A stretch of DNA of 64,000 nt from assembly GCA_009602725.1 (NCBI GenBank), contig WELB01000073.1, forward strand, positions 181,030 through 245,029, in the 5' to 3' direction. Source of the DNA: Spirogloea muscicola. Lineage: Eukaryota; Streptophyta; Zygnematophyceae; Spirogloeales; Spirogloeaceae. Positions 5,278-64,000 of this stretch are shown one piece after another. The translations under genes were made by a program, and so were the position numbers. The notes under the pieces were generated by a model. That model saw nothing but the letters and a program-made list of their open reading frames with translations. It was not told the origin of the DNA and searched no databases. How positions within the stretch are numbered: position 1 is the stretch's first letter; each line of letters opens with the position of its first letter.

Positions 5278-5417
5278 GCTCTTTGCAGCGGTCCCTTGCC
5301 TTCGCGGTTCACTTGCGCACAGGCCGCGCTTTGGCGGCGGCTTCCGGCTTCCGTCAGGGCGACGTCTTTCCGCCAGCTAGCTATTCAGACTTGCATCGTC
5401 TGACTAGGGGTTACTGA
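5278..5417 (+). mobile_element. Non-LTR retrotransposon family A, 3' end fragment
   Basis: The frame reads QRSLAFAVHLRTGRALAAAS and ends ASYSDLHRLTRGY before the stop. This matches the C-terminus of the longer copies at 41905-41191 and 22171-22375. Everything upstream is missing, as expected for 5' truncation. Hairpin units follow from 5464. Confidence 0.85.
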
Positions 5418-5463
5418 AGAGTCCCCTTTGCTGATATCTTTGTCCTTCGCCCTCCGGCTCCTT

Positions 5464-6010
5464 CAGATCTTGTCCATTCTTTTTGGGCTGGCTTCCCCCA
5501 GCCACCAGTCAATCTGGCCGCGCTTGCCGCTTCATTTGGCCCCTTCGAACCTTTGTCAATTCCTTTCGGGCTGGCTTTTCACAGCCCTTGCCCCCATTGG
5601 GAGATTTGGGAGCACTGCCTTGGGAAGACTACCCCAGTTCTGCGATAGCGCTTTTGTGCTTGTTTTTCTTAGCGCTTCCCCTGGCCCCCTTCTCGTACTT
5701 TGTTCATTCTTTCTGGGCTGGCTTTTCCAGCCCCTATCCTCAAATGGGCGAGCCCTTCGTCTTCTGGCCCCTTTCGTAGTCCCCGGAGTCGCTGCTTAGC
5801 TCGTAGTTTGGCCCCTTCGAACCTAGTCAAATCTTTTCGGGCTGGCTTCTCACAGCCCTTGCCCCCATTGGGAGAGCCGCTTCCTCTTTCGTAGTCTGGC
5901 CCCTTACGATCCTTCTCGGGCTGGCTTGTCACAGCCCTTGCCCCAAGTGGGAGAGCCACTTCTTCCGAGGAAGAGCTATATGGCCTTTTCGGCCGGCCTC
6001 TCACAACCAT
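5464..6010 (+). repeat. Head-to-tail array of hairpin units
   Basis: At least six units occur here, with hairpins near 5486, 5567, 5716, 5838, 5918 and 5980. The typical core is GGGCTGGCTTTTCACAGCCC, a 6-base stem with an 8-base loop. It is usually preceded by a CCCCTTCGAACCTTGTCAA-like arm and followed by TTGCCCCCATTGGGAGAGCC. The first unit is of the 63-base kind that ends CTGGCCGCGCTTGC; the others are of the second kind. The array ends about 140 bases before the F-box gene start. Confidence 0.8.
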
Positions 6011-22170: not shown

Positions 22171-22375
22171 GGGCGAGCAGCCTGGCTTCCATGTCGCCGG
22201 GTCCCTCGTCCAAGTTTTCCGGATGCGCCTGGCCGTCTCTTTGCAGCGGTCCCTAGCTTTTGCGGTCCACTTGCGCGCAGGCCGCGCTGTGGCGGCGGCC
22301 TCCGGCTTCTGTCAGGGCGACGTCTTTCCGCCTGCTAGCTACTCAGATTTGCATCTACTGACGAGAGGTTACTGA
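22171..22375 (+). mobile_element. Family A retrotransposon, 3' fragment
   Basis: The frame reads GEQPGFHVAGSLVQVFRMRL and so on to ASYSDLHLLTRGY. It is nearly the same as the minus copy at 41905-41191. The upstream edge is the 5' truncation point. Confidence 0.88.
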
Positions 22376-22421
22376 GAGTTCGCTCACTGCTGTCTCAGTC
22401 CTTAGCACTCCGACTCCTTCA

Positions 22422-22560
22422 GACCTTGTCCATTCTATTGGGCTGGCCTCTCCCAGCCACCAGTTAATCTGGCCGCGCTTGCTTCTTCTTTCCGGGCTGG
22501 CTGTCCACAGCCGTCGCCCCCTTTTGAGGGCCACCTTCTCCTTCACAGCCATCGCTCACT
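22422..22560 (+). repeat. 63-base hairpin unit plus a second unit
   Basis: Bases 22422-22484 match, on the other strand, the 63-base insertion at 63449-63511 with one mismatch by eye. The unit starts AGACCTTGTCCATTCTATTG, has the GGGCTGGCCTCTCCCAGCC stem and ends CTGGCCGCGCTTGCT. It begins 46 bases after the LTRGY stop, so it is part of this copy's 3' region. A second unit follows at about 22494. Confidence 0.85.
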
Positions 22561-27249: not shown

Positions 27250-28770
27250 GGGCTTCGTCGGGTTGTAGGAGCTGGCCGATACGCAGGTACATGCTAGGCG
27301 CTCATGTGCGCTGGTGCTCTCACAGCACTTGGTGCTGTGGATCGGTAGAGTCGTGCAAGTGGGCCGAAGCCCCTGGCCCCAGCAGCCCCGTCAGGCTCCT
27401 TCCATTTCATCTGCTTGCAGCAAGCTCAGCCCATGCGCAGCCACTGATAACCCCGTTGGTGCTGTGGATTTTGTCAAGTTGTCCAAGTGAATCTAAGCTC
27501 CCGTCCCAACAGCAGCCTCGTCAGGATCGTTGTGCTAATATCACGTTGGCGGCTCAACATTGGCAGAACGGATGGTACAAACAATCATAAGAACTTTGAT
27601 GAAGTATCTGCTGGAACATGGCTCAGAGCGTTGGGACAGGATTTTGCCGAGGTTGATCATGGGGTATCGTAAGTCTAACCAATTTTTTCTGTCCAGCTGT
27701 AGTGGACATTATGCAGCTTTTCCTGACATCATTGATGTAGGTGACTGTGTATCTCAAAGTCAAACCACAGGACACCTTGACTTCTCCAACAAACCGTTGC
27801 CTCTCCAGGTCGTTGAAAACATTCCTTCAGGTGTCAAAATTCGTGGCTCACGTAATCGCATTGTTAGTCATCATGTGCATGACACTGCTCGTTGTCATTT
27901 GAGCATTATCTACACTACAATTGATCGGACCAATCTATGGGTTTCTGAGCACCCTCTGCGTGATCTATCATCGTTATGATCAGGCAGCTGTTGAAGTCTT
28001 GTGCTCTGCTTGCAACAAGGGTTGCCATGTAGACTGCCTTACTCCACCACTTCCTTTTGCTACAGACGATCAATGCTTCTGTATGGACTGCACAGCAAAG
28101 CGCCACATACTCCCGCGCTATCGGTGGCGTGTTATCCATATCTGCCACCTATTCGAGTATTGGTAGTGGCGGCAGACCATCTGGCACCGTAAGCTCCACT
28201 TGCGGCTCATCAACCGCTGGTCCGTCATTGTACAGCGAGAGGCCGCGTTGTGCCCTGTCCAGTGCTTGAGTTGCTCTGCTCCGCCGTCTATCAACTTTCG
28301 CATCACATTGTACCAACGGACCTGATTCTATACCGTACAACGGGCTGCAACTTATCTCCACAGTCGCCATTGTTATTTCGTCCTTCCTATAAATATGATT
28401 TGCCGTGGGCCTGTTCTCCTCATCCATTGTCGCATGCCTTACTTTCGGCATCACACGCTCCCCCAGATTTATCAACTCCCCTGGTATTGGAAGGGGCGAC
28501 TGGCCACGAGTCCAAGTAGTCGGAGATTGGCCTTCTGTAAGTTCCCTCACCGTCTCACGTTCCGCTTTGGTACCTGGCAGCGCAAATCGCTCCGGATCTG
28601 CTCTGTACATTGTGATTGCTGCCAACCTGTCTTGCAAGTGATCATTGCCTCCTGCTAAGGAAGTCCCACCATGTGTATGTAGGCTTTCGAGCCGATCTCC
28701 TGAGTCCATGCTTATTTTCCTCCGAAAGCAGAGAAGAGACGAGACAGGAATGACTGCAGCCAAGAAGGGT
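27250..28770 (+). mobile_element. Fossil of a Ty3-like LTR retroelement with PHD finger
   Basis: Around 27545-27660 the strand encodes the end of a retroviral-type integrase core (AERMVQTIIRTLMKYLLEHG, then ERWDRILPRLIMGYRKS), typical of Ty3-like integrases. Near 27985-28105 lies a C4HC3-like PHD finger (VLCSACNKGCHVDCLTPPLP, then CFCMDC), the kind of chromatin-reading module some retroelements carry after the integrase. The element is broken and only a 3' part is seen; no protease or reverse transcriptase was recognised. The age looks moderate to old. Confidence 0.65.
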
Positions 28771-28772
28771 GC

Positions 28773-29026
28773 AGGTACCACAGGTGGAGAGAGATCAGTG
28801 TCAACCAGATACGACCTTGCCTGACCTTAATTGCATCCAACAGTGGACAACAGTAACAAACTAGGTCTAGAGAAAGAGTATACTCGAGTCACACAGATAC
28901 TTCTGACATACTAAAATCGATTATCTTCTACCAGAAATCATGACACTAAGCAGTCCTTAGCAGAGTCCTGAGCAATGGCAAATGAAGCAGTCCAATGCAA
29001 TCGAAGCTCAATCGCAGACACAGTTC
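28773..29026. repeat. Direct repeat copy 1 (254 bases)
   Basis: It starts AGGTACCACAGGTGGAGAGA and ends CGCAGACACAGTTC. It matches 29585-29837 with only a few differences. It could be part of an LTR of the adjacent element, but no TG...CA ends were seen. Confidence 0.85.
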
Positions 29027-41035: not shown

Positions 41036-41084
41036 CTGGAATAATACGGAACGAGAGCTAGCTCTCTCTCTCTTTCTACGAGAG

Positions 41085-41149
41085 CAAGCGCGGCCAGATT
41101 AAGTGGTGGCTGGGAGAGGCCAGCCCAAAAGAATGGACAAGGTCTGAAG
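41085..41149 (-). repeat. 63-base hairpin unit in the 3' region of a family A copy
   Basis: It reads AGCAAGCGCGGCCAGATTAA and ends GGACAAGGTCT, the same ends as the insertion at 63449-63511. It lies 42 bases beyond the stop of the minus copy at 41191. Confidence 0.85.
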
Positions 41150-41190
41150 GAGTCGGAGTGCTAAGGACTGAGACAGCAGTAAGCGAACTC

Positions 41191-41905
41191 TCAGTAACCT
41201 CTCGTCAGTAGATGCAAATCTGAGTAGCTAGCAGGCGGAAAGACGTCGCCCTGACGGAAGCCGGAGGCCGCCGCCAGAGCGCGGCCTGCGCGCAAGTGGA
41301 CCGCAAAAGCTAGGGACCGCTGCAAAGAGACGGCCAGGCGCATCCGGAAAACTTGGGCGAGGGACCCGGCGACATGGAAGCCAGGCTGCTCGCCCTGCTG
41401 CCCGTGGCGGCGGGCCGCTGCTTGCCGCGCAAGGCGGTGAAGTAGCTCCAGCCATTTGGCGCCAAAGGCGCCGTGTACGTCGACGGCGAGTAGGATATAC
41501 TCGTCGCCTACCAGGTGATCCGAGTACTTGCGCTCCTTTGCGTCGGCCGCTTGGCGGACGGCGTAGCCCGCCTCCTCCGCCGAGCGTGTTGCGCTCCTGG
41601 AATCCAAGGAGTCCGTTGTGACGACGTCGGCAATGAGCCGAGGCCCCCCGCCGAGCGCGCTAGCGACGAGATCGGCGCGCCGGGTGTGGAGGCGGCCGTC
41701 CGCCCCAGCAGTCAGAGGCATGATGCTGGAGTTCTCCAGCGCCACAATGTAACCGGCTTCGACAAATATGCCGAACTTCGCGTTCCGGAGCAGGTCGTGT
41801 GTGCCGGTCCGCTCCCCTCCCCGTGCGCATCGGAGCATGTGAGCCGCCAGTGACGCCGCGTCCGGGCTGCGCTCGCCGCACTCGCATTGTTGTACTCCAC
41901 CTAGG
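41191..41905 (-). mobile_element. Family A retrotransposon, open zinc-finger/endonuclease part
   Basis: The minus frame is open for 215 residues. It starts MLRCARGGERTGTHDLLRNA, which continues a zinc-finger-like block (CECGERSPDAASLAAHMLRC) readable just upstream. Then come GYIVALENSSIMPLTAGADG, RRADLVASALGGGPRLIADV with the expected catalytic Asp, KERKYSDHLVGDEYILLAVD and the end ASYSDLHLLTRGY. This is the best preserved endonuclease domain in the window. The reverse transcriptase is absent (5' truncation near 41905). Confidence 0.9.
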
Positions 41906-41974
41906 CATGGTGGGTGGAGGCCGAGTAGCTCTCTGCGCCAGTCTCTCGGCTGTGACTTCCTCTAGACGGGGTCG

Positions 41975-60627: not shown

Positions 60628-62975
60628 TCAGTAGCTACGAGTGAGGAGCCTCATATCCGACAGACTTGCTGCCGGAAGACTATCCCCCTGACGAAAGCCA
60701 GAAGCTGCAGCGAGAGCACGGCCAGCACGCAGATGCAAGGTGTGGGCCATGGACCGCTGAAGGGAGACTGACAATCGCATGCGATATACCTGGGCCCACG
60801 AGCCAGCGGCATTGAAGTCAGCCGGCTCAGCTCGCCTGCGGGACACAGCGCGCCGTGCAAGCCTGGCCAGCAGGTCGAGCCACTGGGACCCGAAGCCCTG
60901 TGCACGTCCATGGCCAGGGGTACGAACTCGTCTCCAGCGGGGTGGTCAGCGTGTTTGGCCGCTTTACTGCGAGCGGCCTTCGCCGCAGCATGGCCAGCCC
61001 GCGAGGCAGAGAGCTCCGTATTGGATCGGTCCACCACATTGGAGTCACGTCTGCAATGACGCGCACGCCGCCTCCCGGCGTCGAGGCCACCAAGTCGACC
61101 CGGCCCGTTTGAAGTCCGCCGGCCTTCTGGAGGATTGGCATGATGGAAGTGTTTTCCATCGCCACCGTTGAGCCCGGCTTCCACAAAGATGCCAAACATG
61201 GCATCCCTGAGGAGGTCGTGTGCAGCGGTGCGTTCACCTCCCATGGCGCAGCGGAGGACATGCGCCGCCAGCTCCGCCGGGTCTGCCGACCGTTCGCAGC
61301 ACTCGCGCTGCAGCACGTTTAGCAGACAGGGCCGGGGGAGGCCCAGCAGGCGGTGGACTGCCGTGCGGAAAAGGTCATCCAGCATCCTGAGTGCATCGTA
61401 GTGGGGGAGCGCGGAGAGCCAGGCTGCCGCGCCAGGGGAGGAGGCCGACCGCAGCTGAGCATGGCCGCACACGTCTGTCGGAGGGAGGAGCCGCAGCGTG
61501 GCCGTGAAGGCCACCTTGTCGACCTCTGCCAAGTATCGCGCCTGCGCCCGCGAGTCGATGGAGTGGGCCAGGTGCGCAAACGGGACCACGCTCTCCGCGA
61601 GGGCTGGGTGCTCCACGAGTGACTCGTGTTGAGAGGAGCGGAGCGCCACCTGAAAAGGCAACGAGCCGGTCTTTACCTCCGCCACAGGCTGCTGCAGCAT
61701 GGGCCGCCCACCCTGGACGAAGCGCTGGGCCACCGACGTGGCGACCTGAGCCCAGCTGCCGAGATACGCTGGCCTGCAAATGCGAGCGAGTGAGCGGCAG
61801 CCGAGGCCGCCGTGACTGAGAGGAAGAGCAGCCTGGTGCACAGCAGCTGTCCAGTCGAGGAAGTCTGAGTGTCGGATGAAGGCCGCCACGCTCTCCATGA
61901 CGCCGGTGTCGAACATGGCGCAGGCCTCCAGCACCACAAGGCAGGGAGGTGTAGCCCGCGCAAGGTAGTGGGGCCGCTGGACGATGCTTCTGGTGAGCAT
62001 GGCCAGGGAGGCAAGATAGAACTTGCATGTGACAACGAGATATGAGTTGGTCGTCATTCATAAAAGTGGTAATCAATTACCATATCCTGCAGCTCTGGGA
62101 GGCGGGCAGCCGGTCGAAGGTGCTCCTGGAGCCGGGCGCGCAGCTGCGCGTCCACGACGGATGGCGTGCCGAGGGGAACCCCCAGGATGGTGAGGCCGTC
62201 CGGAGGAGTCTGGCAACCGGTGGGCAGAGGCACGGGGGCAGGCAGGCTGCGAGGCGACCACGCGACGCACTTCTCGGCCCGAATGGTCAAGCCGAGGGCG
62301 GCCAGCTGCTGCTGGACGGTGGCATTGGCTGCCAGCACATTCCCTGGGCTGCCGACCAGTGTGGTGTCGTCGGCGTAGATCGGCAGGAGGACGCTGGGGT
62401 GCGCCGCCGCAGTGGCCTTGAGAGCGCGAAAGTGAGCCAGCGCAAAAGAGAACCCGGCCAGAGGATCCCCCTCGCGTGTGCCCGTCCTCGACTGCAGCGT
62501 CTCCACCTCACCACTCCCTGTCCGCCACAGAAGGTCGCTGGGCTGGCCGTAGCCAAGGCGGAAGTAGGGAAGGAGGGAGGGGAAGGCCGCTCGCAGCTCC
62601 TCGGCGATGGCGCTGCTCTCTACGTTGTTGAAGGCGTTTTGCACATTAACAGCCAGGACCATCCAGTCAGGCTGGAGATCCAGGGCCGCGCGGACGCCGT
62701 GGACGACATCCTCCCCGCCGCTTCGTAGCCCAGCGCCGTCTTGATGTGGGGCAAGGTGGGTCTGCGCCTGCCTGGGATGTTGCTGCCACAGCGTGCGGGC
62801 CACCAAACGGTACAGAACCTCGCCGATGGCGATGGTGCGGACTCCGCCATTGGCCTCGGCGATGGCGAGGAGGTTGCTGGAGCAGAGCACCGAACGGGTA
62901 GCAGCAGGGACTTTCTCCTGGGCCACGAGCTGACAGACTTGGAGCAGCGCCTGGAAGTCGGAGGCCTCGAAGAAG
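60628..62975 (-). mobile_element. Family A retrotransposon, longest copy
   Basis: On the minus strand, from FFEASDFQALLQVCQLVAQE, it holds the reverse transcriptase: GGVRTIAIGEVLYRLVARTL, APHQDGAGLRSGGEDVVHGV, AVNVQNAFNNVE, RTGTREGDPLAGFSFALAHF, the catalytic IYADDTTLVG (about 62385-62355) and GLTIRAEKCVAW. After a stop near 62054 the next frame gives the thumb and connector (LVVLEACAMFDTGVMESVAA, ALPLSHGGLGCRSLARI), the zinc finger (CCERSADPAELAAHVLRCAM) and pieces of the endonuclease (TGRVDLVASTPGGGVRVIAD; HPAGDEFVPLAMDV). The end is SLSDMRLLTRSY. At least three frame changes make it inactive. The N-terminal segment is missing at a junction with hairpin units. Confidence 0.92.
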
Positions 62976-62984
62976 CCTTCGTTC

Positions 62985-63125
62985 ATTCTTTTCTGGGCTG
63001 GCTTTTTCCAGCCCCTATCCTCAATGGGCGAGCCCTTCTTCGAAGAAGACGCTTCCAGGACAGGGCGAAGGCTGGGAGAGGCCAGCCCAGAGAAAAGAAT
63101 GAACAAAGTTCGAAGGGGCCAGGGA
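62985..63125. repeat. Facing pair of hairpin units at a copy's 5' junction
   Basis: A plus unit (GGGCTGGCTTTTTCCAGCCC, 62995) and a minus unit (GGCTGGGAGAGGCCAGCCCA, about 63070) face each other around AGAAGACGCTTCC. They lie immediately 5' of the minus copy that begins at 62975. Confidence 0.8.
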
Positions 63126-63129
63126 AAGC

Positions 63130-63193
63130 GCCAATACATTCAGGATACCAGGAGACAGATACTCCGACCTGCGGCTGCTTAGTAGGGGTTACT
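63130..63193 (+). mobile_element. Family A tail
   Basis: It reads YSDLRLLSRGY, then a stop and GTGTTTTGTAGCTACTTGA, as at 18066 and 48732. Confidence 0.8.
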
Positions 63194-63212: not shown

Positions 63213-64000
63213 GAGCCAAGCCAACGCACGGTGATGCTAGCCAGGATTCAGCGTTTTGAGGGCGGTGCATGGGAGCAGCTCCTGGAGGAGCATCGCACAG
63301 CTGTCCAGGTGTCCCAGGCGGATCGGCCCACCCCAGCCACCTCAGAGGCTTCAGCTGTCCGCCGAGCCATTCGTTTCGGCCGCGCAGGGGACCTTTCCCG
63401 AGCTGCCCAAGCTCTGGACCCAGCCACCCCAGCACCTCACGACGCAGAAGCAAGCGCGGCCAGATTAACTGGTGGCTGGGAGAGGCCAGCCCAAAAGAAT
63501 GGACAAGGTCTGACGCAGAGACCCTTGCTGCTCTCCAGACCCTCCACCCCCCTGCCCCAAGCTTCCTACCCCCCTGGCTCGAGGAGTTTCAGCCCCCGAC
63601 CACGGTGGACCTCAATCCAGCAGCTCTTCGGACAGCGCTGGTGCAGAGCCGGAAAGCAGCGGCCGGAGGGCCCTCGAGCTTGCTCTTTGAACACCTTCGA
63701 GAGCTCTGGCTCGACGACGAGGCGGGTGACTTCAGTCTGCTGCACAAAGTGTGCCAAGCGGTTGCGCGCGGCCTCCTCCCACCCAAGGCCCGGGCGGCAC
63801 TCACCAGCAGCACTCTGCTCGCTCTCTCCAAGCCCACCAGAGGCGTCCGACCAATTGCGATGGGCGAGGTCCTTACCCGACTGGTTTCAAAAACCGTATT
63901 CCAGCAGAACAGAGAGGCGGCGCAGCTCCACTTCTCTCCACACCAGTTTGGCGCAGGGCTGTCTGCGGGCGCGGAGACAGTGGTTCATGGTCTACGTGTT
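63213..64000 (+). mobile_element. Family A retrotransposon, N-terminal and RT part, runs off the window
   Basis: From about 63213 the strand reads MLARIQRFEGGAWEQLLEEH, AIRFGRAGDLSRAAQALDPA, then (after the insertion at 63449-63511) LAALQTLHPPAPSFLPPWLE, SRKAAAGGPSSLLFEHLREL, RGVRPIAMGEVLTRLVSKTV and SPHQFGAGLSAGAETVVHGL. This supplies the N-terminal segment that the other copies lack. Apart from the 71-base insertion plus duplication, the frame is open to the window end. It is the most intact reverse transcriptase region here. The left edge directly follows another copy's tail. Confidence 0.9.
63449..63511 (-). mobile_element. 63-base hairpin unit inserted in a reverse transcriptase frame
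   Basis: The unit reads AGCAAGCGCGGCCAGATTAA and ends GGACAAGGTCT. It is flanked by GACGCAGA at 63441-63448 and again at 63512-63519. Removing the unit and one duplicate restores the reading frame (HDAETLAALQTLHP). The unit itself is almost identical to 22422-22484 and to 41085-41149. Confidence 0.93.

Follow-up and report, generated by a model that had tools for sequence, protein, structure and literature searches.

A 63-nt insert in a LINE frame of Spirogloea muscicola, very probably an extreme 5' truncation of a second LINE family

A 63-nt insert was analyzed in a 64,000-nt stretch of DNA (the window) from Spirogloea muscicola, a streptophyte alga of the Zygnematophyceae. The insert is very probably an extremely 5'-truncated insertion of one LINE family, family A, made by target-primed reverse transcription that stopped at about 63 nt, and it lies inside another LINE. 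The features at the site are as follows.

63449–63511, minus strand: insert of 63 nt (up to 65), a stub from the 3' terminus of LINE family A, from comparison of family A copies
63441–63448, no strand assigned: target site duplication, copy 1 (GACGCAGA), single in 19/19 empty relatives
63512–63519, no strand assigned: target site duplication, copy 2 (GACGCAGA), from the window sequence
63231–64000, plus strand: host, the RT-region frame of another LINE family, which the insert breaks and shifts and which runs on beyond the window (L102)

The insert and its duplication were observed directly in the window sequence. On the minus strand, the insert was the 3' terminus of family A. The 8-mer GACGCAGA was read at both 63441–63448 and 63512–63519, immediately flanking 63449–63511, so the perfect 8-base duplication described in an earlier sequence-only reading was confirmed. 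The net gain at the site was 71 bases (63 of insert and one 8-mer). The length of the insert is ambiguous (63, 64 or 65 nt) because the next upstream bases of the element are TC, and 63512–63513 fit the element too. Joining the flanks without the insert gave a single open RT-type frame, and the insert shifted this frame.

Relatives of the host LINE were searched for in the genome, and 40 of 1077 candidates were scored. The best relatives matched in two pieces (query 1–218 and 282–730) with an 8-base overlap at the site, and among the candidates scored the best empty-site relatives were 97–99% identical to the host copy. An empty site with one 8-mer was observed in all 19 relatives fetched (L062–L080), the window's own locus apart; the 8-mer was exact in ten, had one change in eight, and had two changes in one. 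The two relatives that were translated, L065 and L076, both had a long uninterrupted frame across the site. The sequence-only reading had held that the frame is continuous once the unit and one duplicate are removed, and had named uninterrupted related copies as the check; both points were borne out. Because the duplication is present, 19/19 relatives are empty, and L065 and L076 read through, the insertion was taken as real. An insertion with duplication in the host LINE is confirmed, far beyond chance, and the locus is a clean filled/empty pair.

Three further family A copies were found in the window.

22172–22483, plus strand: family A copy of 312 nt with the same 3' end as the insert, by window comparison
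41083–41925, minus strand: family A copy of about 843 nt with the same 3' end, holding a C-terminal ORF at 41191–41838, by window comparison
5279–5528, plus strand: diverged family A copy of about 250 nt, by window comparison

The copies at 22172–22483 and 41083–41925 had in common with the insert only the ...GCGCTTGCT end. The earlier statement that the insert shares two ends with 22422–22484 and 41085–41149 was therefore not upheld; both have the AGCAAGC end only and extend to 312 and 843 nt. Across the 153-Mb genome, the 64-base core of the family A 3' end had 256 exact matches. The recent activity claimed earlier is a fair reading of these exact matches and of the near identity of the best empty-site relatives to the host copy.

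The 5' ends were compared in 71 copies from 69 loci, with identical contexts merged. The copies came from 70 loci sequenced among the first 100 of the 256 places in contig order; locus L095 gave no row. This sample is blind to shorter copies and to other 3' ends, since it was selected by an exact match to the 3' 64 nt. The observed 5' ends were variable. Seventy copies measured 65–644 nt without a peak (65, 68, 68, 68, 70, 71, 73, 75 ... 519, 644), and the remaining one, L044 (the same copy as L101), was the reference itself, at least 846 nt long by its match to the window. The median was 146 nt; 22 of the 71 copies were at most 92 nt and 40 were at most 160 nt. False ends affected 11 of the 71 lengths (seven N runs, three locus edges, and the reference copy L044, which stops at the 900-nt limit of the script). 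With these false ends included, the apparent chance of ending per nucleotide was 0.010–0.013 at 64–95 nt and 0.004–0.006 beyond. By eye, about five sampled copies lay directly behind the 3' end of another tail and may be split rather than truncated. Exact-match counts of the 3' 24, 44, and 64 nt (757, 533, and 256) were set aside as an estimate of truncation, because the mismatch rate (30 in 2580 bases) is mixed into them.

Since the sample demands 64 matching bases, the rest of the fetched DNA was examined for shorter copies. Among 33 other copies, 13 were shorter than 63 nt (20–60 nt); the two 20-nt ones are doubtful, and another tail's 3' end precedes about five, which may be split. Clear short cases were a 28-nt copy in L025 and a 39-nt copy in L036, each inside another tail. 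A second antisense family A stub, even shorter than the insert, was seen at 2205–2235 of L102, about 2.2 kb beyond the window end and just downstream of the host LINE. In L013, two family A tails stood in direct tandem about 66 nt apart, which suggests template jumping or an insertion that landed right where an older copy ends.

A fair test of the 3' end was restricted to copies not picked for fetching, because the 71 copies had been selected by that end. Seventeen copies with an anchor upstream of the hairpin lay in loci that had been fetched on other grounds, and 16 of these 17 reached the same 3' end; with the selected copies included, the count was 119 of 122. Mean identity between copies fell past the 3' end, to 0.36 over the first 5 nt and then to about 0.25.

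Target duplications were examined in 67 of the 71 copies; four were dropped because the left flank was under 30 nt. Duplications of at least 6 nt were observed in 21/67 copies, with lengths of 6–21 nt, against 1.75 expected from mispaired flanks. At a threshold of 4 nt, the count was 47/67 against 12.9 expected by the same control. The other 20 copies had no duplication of at least 4 nt; the left flank was an N run in seven of these, leaving 13 of 60 readable copies. The sequence-only reading had proposed tabulating ends and duplications. In the sampled copies, target duplications proved real, whereas their length was not constant and the 3' end alone was fixed.

In 15 of the 21 copies with a duplication of at least 6 nt, 1–6 bases, mostly pyrimidines, stood between the element and the duplication. 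The first two bases past the 3' end of the element were pyrimidines in 65 and 66 of the 71 copies, respectively. A pyrimidine-rich junction fits priming at that point, and its cause may be pairing between primer and RNA or a preference for the target. The insertions were dispersed; the 71 sampled copies had differing flanks and had in common only the pyrimidine preference at the junction. A preference for insertion into other tails was also considered. Of 60 sites, 16 touched a tail; the rate was 6.5% for random window positions and 11% for YTY-matched ones. This preference was rejected because no excess was found against positions in the same loci (4/25 sites against 12.8% and 21.5%). Family A copies lay behind the 3' end of the same other tail in L033 and L050, as if that family had repeatedly inserted at pyrimidine sites within family A.

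The following mechanism is proposed. The family A LINE would nick the coding strand of the RT gene of the other LINE, and the nicked end would prime cDNA synthesis on the very 3' end of family A RNA. Synthesis or second-strand capture would end after about 63 nt. The 8-nt stagger would be filled in to yield the duplication, and the 5' join would use the 2-nt TC match. We infer target-primed reverse transcription as the chemistry, as well as the identity of the nicked strand. The nick may have been made by the RLE-like C-terminus, and the role of the TC match in the 5' join is likewise putative.

The sequence-only reading had suggested that the short piece moves as a defined unit, and offered two options. 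The first, a family A tail truncated to an extreme degree at its 5' side, agreed with the results; the second, a tiny non-autonomous element bounded by two ends of its own, did not. Such an element of about 63 nt would have its own transcript and use the family A machinery. The insert contains the whole tail and other copies stop nearby (65, 68, 68, 68, and 70 nt), as this explanation would have it. However, the 5' ends were continuous, with no peak at a single length and only the change in ending chance given above; duplication lengths varied, inserts shorter than 63 nt occurred, and the left flanks of 39 copies no longer than 160 nt had no module in common, except in the pair L033/L050 behind the same other tail. 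A separately transcribed element is therefore very unlikely, and the idea of a defined mobile unit was not retained. A SINE was rejected on the same lack of a common 5' module in these 39 copies, again with the exception of L033/L050.

A cut-and-paste DNA element of the MITE type would leave fixed 8-bp duplications. The duplication at this site is a perfect 8 bp, but clear duplications elsewhere span 6–21 nt, the unit's ends do not form inverted repeats, and one end is fixed while the other varies; this origin is extremely improbable. Hardly any weight is given to an introner-like element spliced from the host frame. Removing 71 nt restores the frame, yet the duplication allows nine placements of a 71-nt segment, none of which starts with GT and ends with AG, and the host is a multicopy LINE. 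The insert could also be what is left of a longer family A copy after a deletion or after splitting by a second insertion. Splitting fits some short copies that lie directly behind another tail's 3' end (L033, L050). At the present site, however, both copies of the duplication lie flush against the insert, and in 19/19 relatives the flanks join up as continuous host gene, so a later deletion or split has next to no probability here. Truncation during insertion of family A is the reading kept in what follows.

Two stem-loops were predicted in the tail.

63474–63491, minus strand: stem-loop 1 of the tail, GGCTGG-CCTCTC-CCAGCC on the sense strand, from the MFE fold
63460–63472, minus strand: possible stem-loop 2, CCAG-TTAAT-CTGG on the sense strand, from the MFE fold; conserved pairing unsupported in the consensus of 20 tails

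A stable RNA fold of the whole 63-base unit was ruled out, as it folded no better than shuffled sequences (z −0.25; 72/200 shuffles as stable). The GGCTG/CAGCC stem was present in 20 hand-picked tails of different families, most of them collected by that motif, with a gap at one pair in one tail. The consensus fold of these mostly motif-collected tails predicted the GGCTG/CAGCC stem alone, at −8.6 against a column-shuffle mean of −0.1, and 0/200 shuffles were as low. This consensus says nothing on covariation because the stem never varies. No covariation or compensatory changes were found in the tail stems by the 20-tail consensus or by a partner-swap test. A larger outer stem, noticed by eye in some of the tails, did not pass the partner-swap test (p 0.87 for 109 clusters; p 0.70 for 75 motif-selected ones). 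No Rfam match was found within the window at the gathering threshold. By analogy with stringent-type LINEs, the tail may act as a recognition element.

By a seven-family library, 4.1% of the window consisted of tails that bear the GGCTG/CAGCC motif and belong to several families. One other tail family had 962 exact 36-base copies genome-wide. At about 62977–63107, two tails of other families adjoined in opposite orientation inside an RT-bearing ORF (62054–63139, minus strand) and formed an imperfect palindrome.

The longest family A copy fetched (L101, the same as L044) had a stop-to-stop ORF of 318 codons that ended about 108 nt before the 3' end. The 63 bases of the insert are therefore the end of a short 3' UTR. 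The ORF had the motifs CECG...HMLRC, RRADLV...DVV, KERKY, and GAKW. Long frames were observed around family A-like C-termini: matches to the ORF with 98–99% identity lay in open frames as long as 921 aa, and those with 85–86% identity in frames of up to 1521 aa. The host LINE had an N-terminal zinc-finger-like motif, an RVT_1 domain (E 1.8e-15), and a C-terminal knuckle, and its C-terminus was homologous to that of family A. The C-terminal ORF of family A aligned with this RT-bearing family; the RVT_1 match was obtained with the host LINE, and an RT in family A is putative. A KX2KY motif followed R-x-D ... D in both, as KERKY in family A and KERHY in the host LINE. The Cys-Cys-His-Cys knuckle of both was CX1CX12HX3C, which is off the published CX2-3CX7-8HX4C.

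Distant relatives were seen among metagenome proteins and in a protein that bears the name Polarella glacialis. In 13 of 24 distant relatives (P0011–P0034), a loose K..[KRHQ]Y pattern occurred, at a position that was not C-terminal in at least one, and knuckle spacing was intermediate, for example CX2CX9HX3C. The six proteins nearest to the C-terminus of the host LINE were SM-named gene models with scaffold coordinates. P0007 among them (s33:523228–524184, minus) had a full-length match at 100% identity on contig C33 (523231–524184, minus), and the coordinates of P0004 and P0005 overlapped matches on C339 and C147, so the genome searched is the assembly from which these gene models come; SM stands for Spirogloea muscicola. 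The AlphaFold model for a restriction-endonuclease fold had a pLDDT of 31 and was unusable. The RT fragment in the window gave no match to solved structures at E 0.01; the host LINE ORF gave three weak matches to group II/retron-type RTs, the best at E 0.11. In a separate part of the window (28149–28781, minus strand), a 210-aa ORF matched Pfam Totivirus_coat (E 4.1e-21) and looks like an endogenous totivirus-like fragment.

This genome contains LINE insertions as short as about 63 nt, and probably down to about 30 nt, which could pass for novel mini-elements. A broader proposal is offered tentatively and is rather doubtful: the genome may hold a large dispersed group of RLE-like LINEs that abort so early that much of their output consists of 3' recognition-tail stubs of 30–160 nt. 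If so, early-aborting LINEs would seed genes with tiny hairpin-bearing insertions, and first-strand priming and 5' capture could be read from their ends. Among the titles and abstracts of open-access literature searched, no work on Spirogloea LINEs was found. Dispersed RLE-like LINEs of the sister lineage of land plants may be under-described.

Family A and the host LINE were compared with known LINEs. According to the parts of the literature consulted, the features of RLE LINEs are a CX2-3CX7-8HX4C knuckle, a PD-(D/E)XK variant with KX2KY, and GXW (PMC5678591), and most RLE LINEs are target-specific (PMC4640811). As in these RLE-bearing LINEs (R2 group), a single long ORF with an N-terminal zinc-finger-like motif, an RT, a C-terminal CCHC-like knuckle, and RLE-type motifs including KX2KY was found here. 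Unlike in the descriptions consulted, the knuckle was CX1CX12HX3C, GXW was only approximated in family A (GAKW), and family A copies were dispersed and not at one site. Because the knuckle spacing differs, GXW is approximate, and the copies are dispersed, family A was called a LINE with an RLE-like C-terminus and kept out of R2.

Stringent-type LINEs and their SINEs carry a 3' stem-loop recognized by the RT, as described in the consulted part of PMC3747384, and a 3'-terminal stem-loop motif is likewise common to the tail families here. In contrast to stringent-type LINE/SINE pairs, no SINE with the family A tail was seen in the sample, and no compensatory changes were found. According to the same source, as far as consulted, the majority of LINE members have lost their 5' part at differing positions and are 100–1,000 bp long. 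The insert of 63 nt falls below this range, and 40/71 sampled copies were no longer than 160 nt. The common 3' end, variable 5' truncation, variable target duplication, and RT-encoding relatives were all like those of 5'-truncated LINE insertions made by target-primed reverse transcription. The event is extreme but ordinary among such insertions, and it is of a well-known type rather than a new element.
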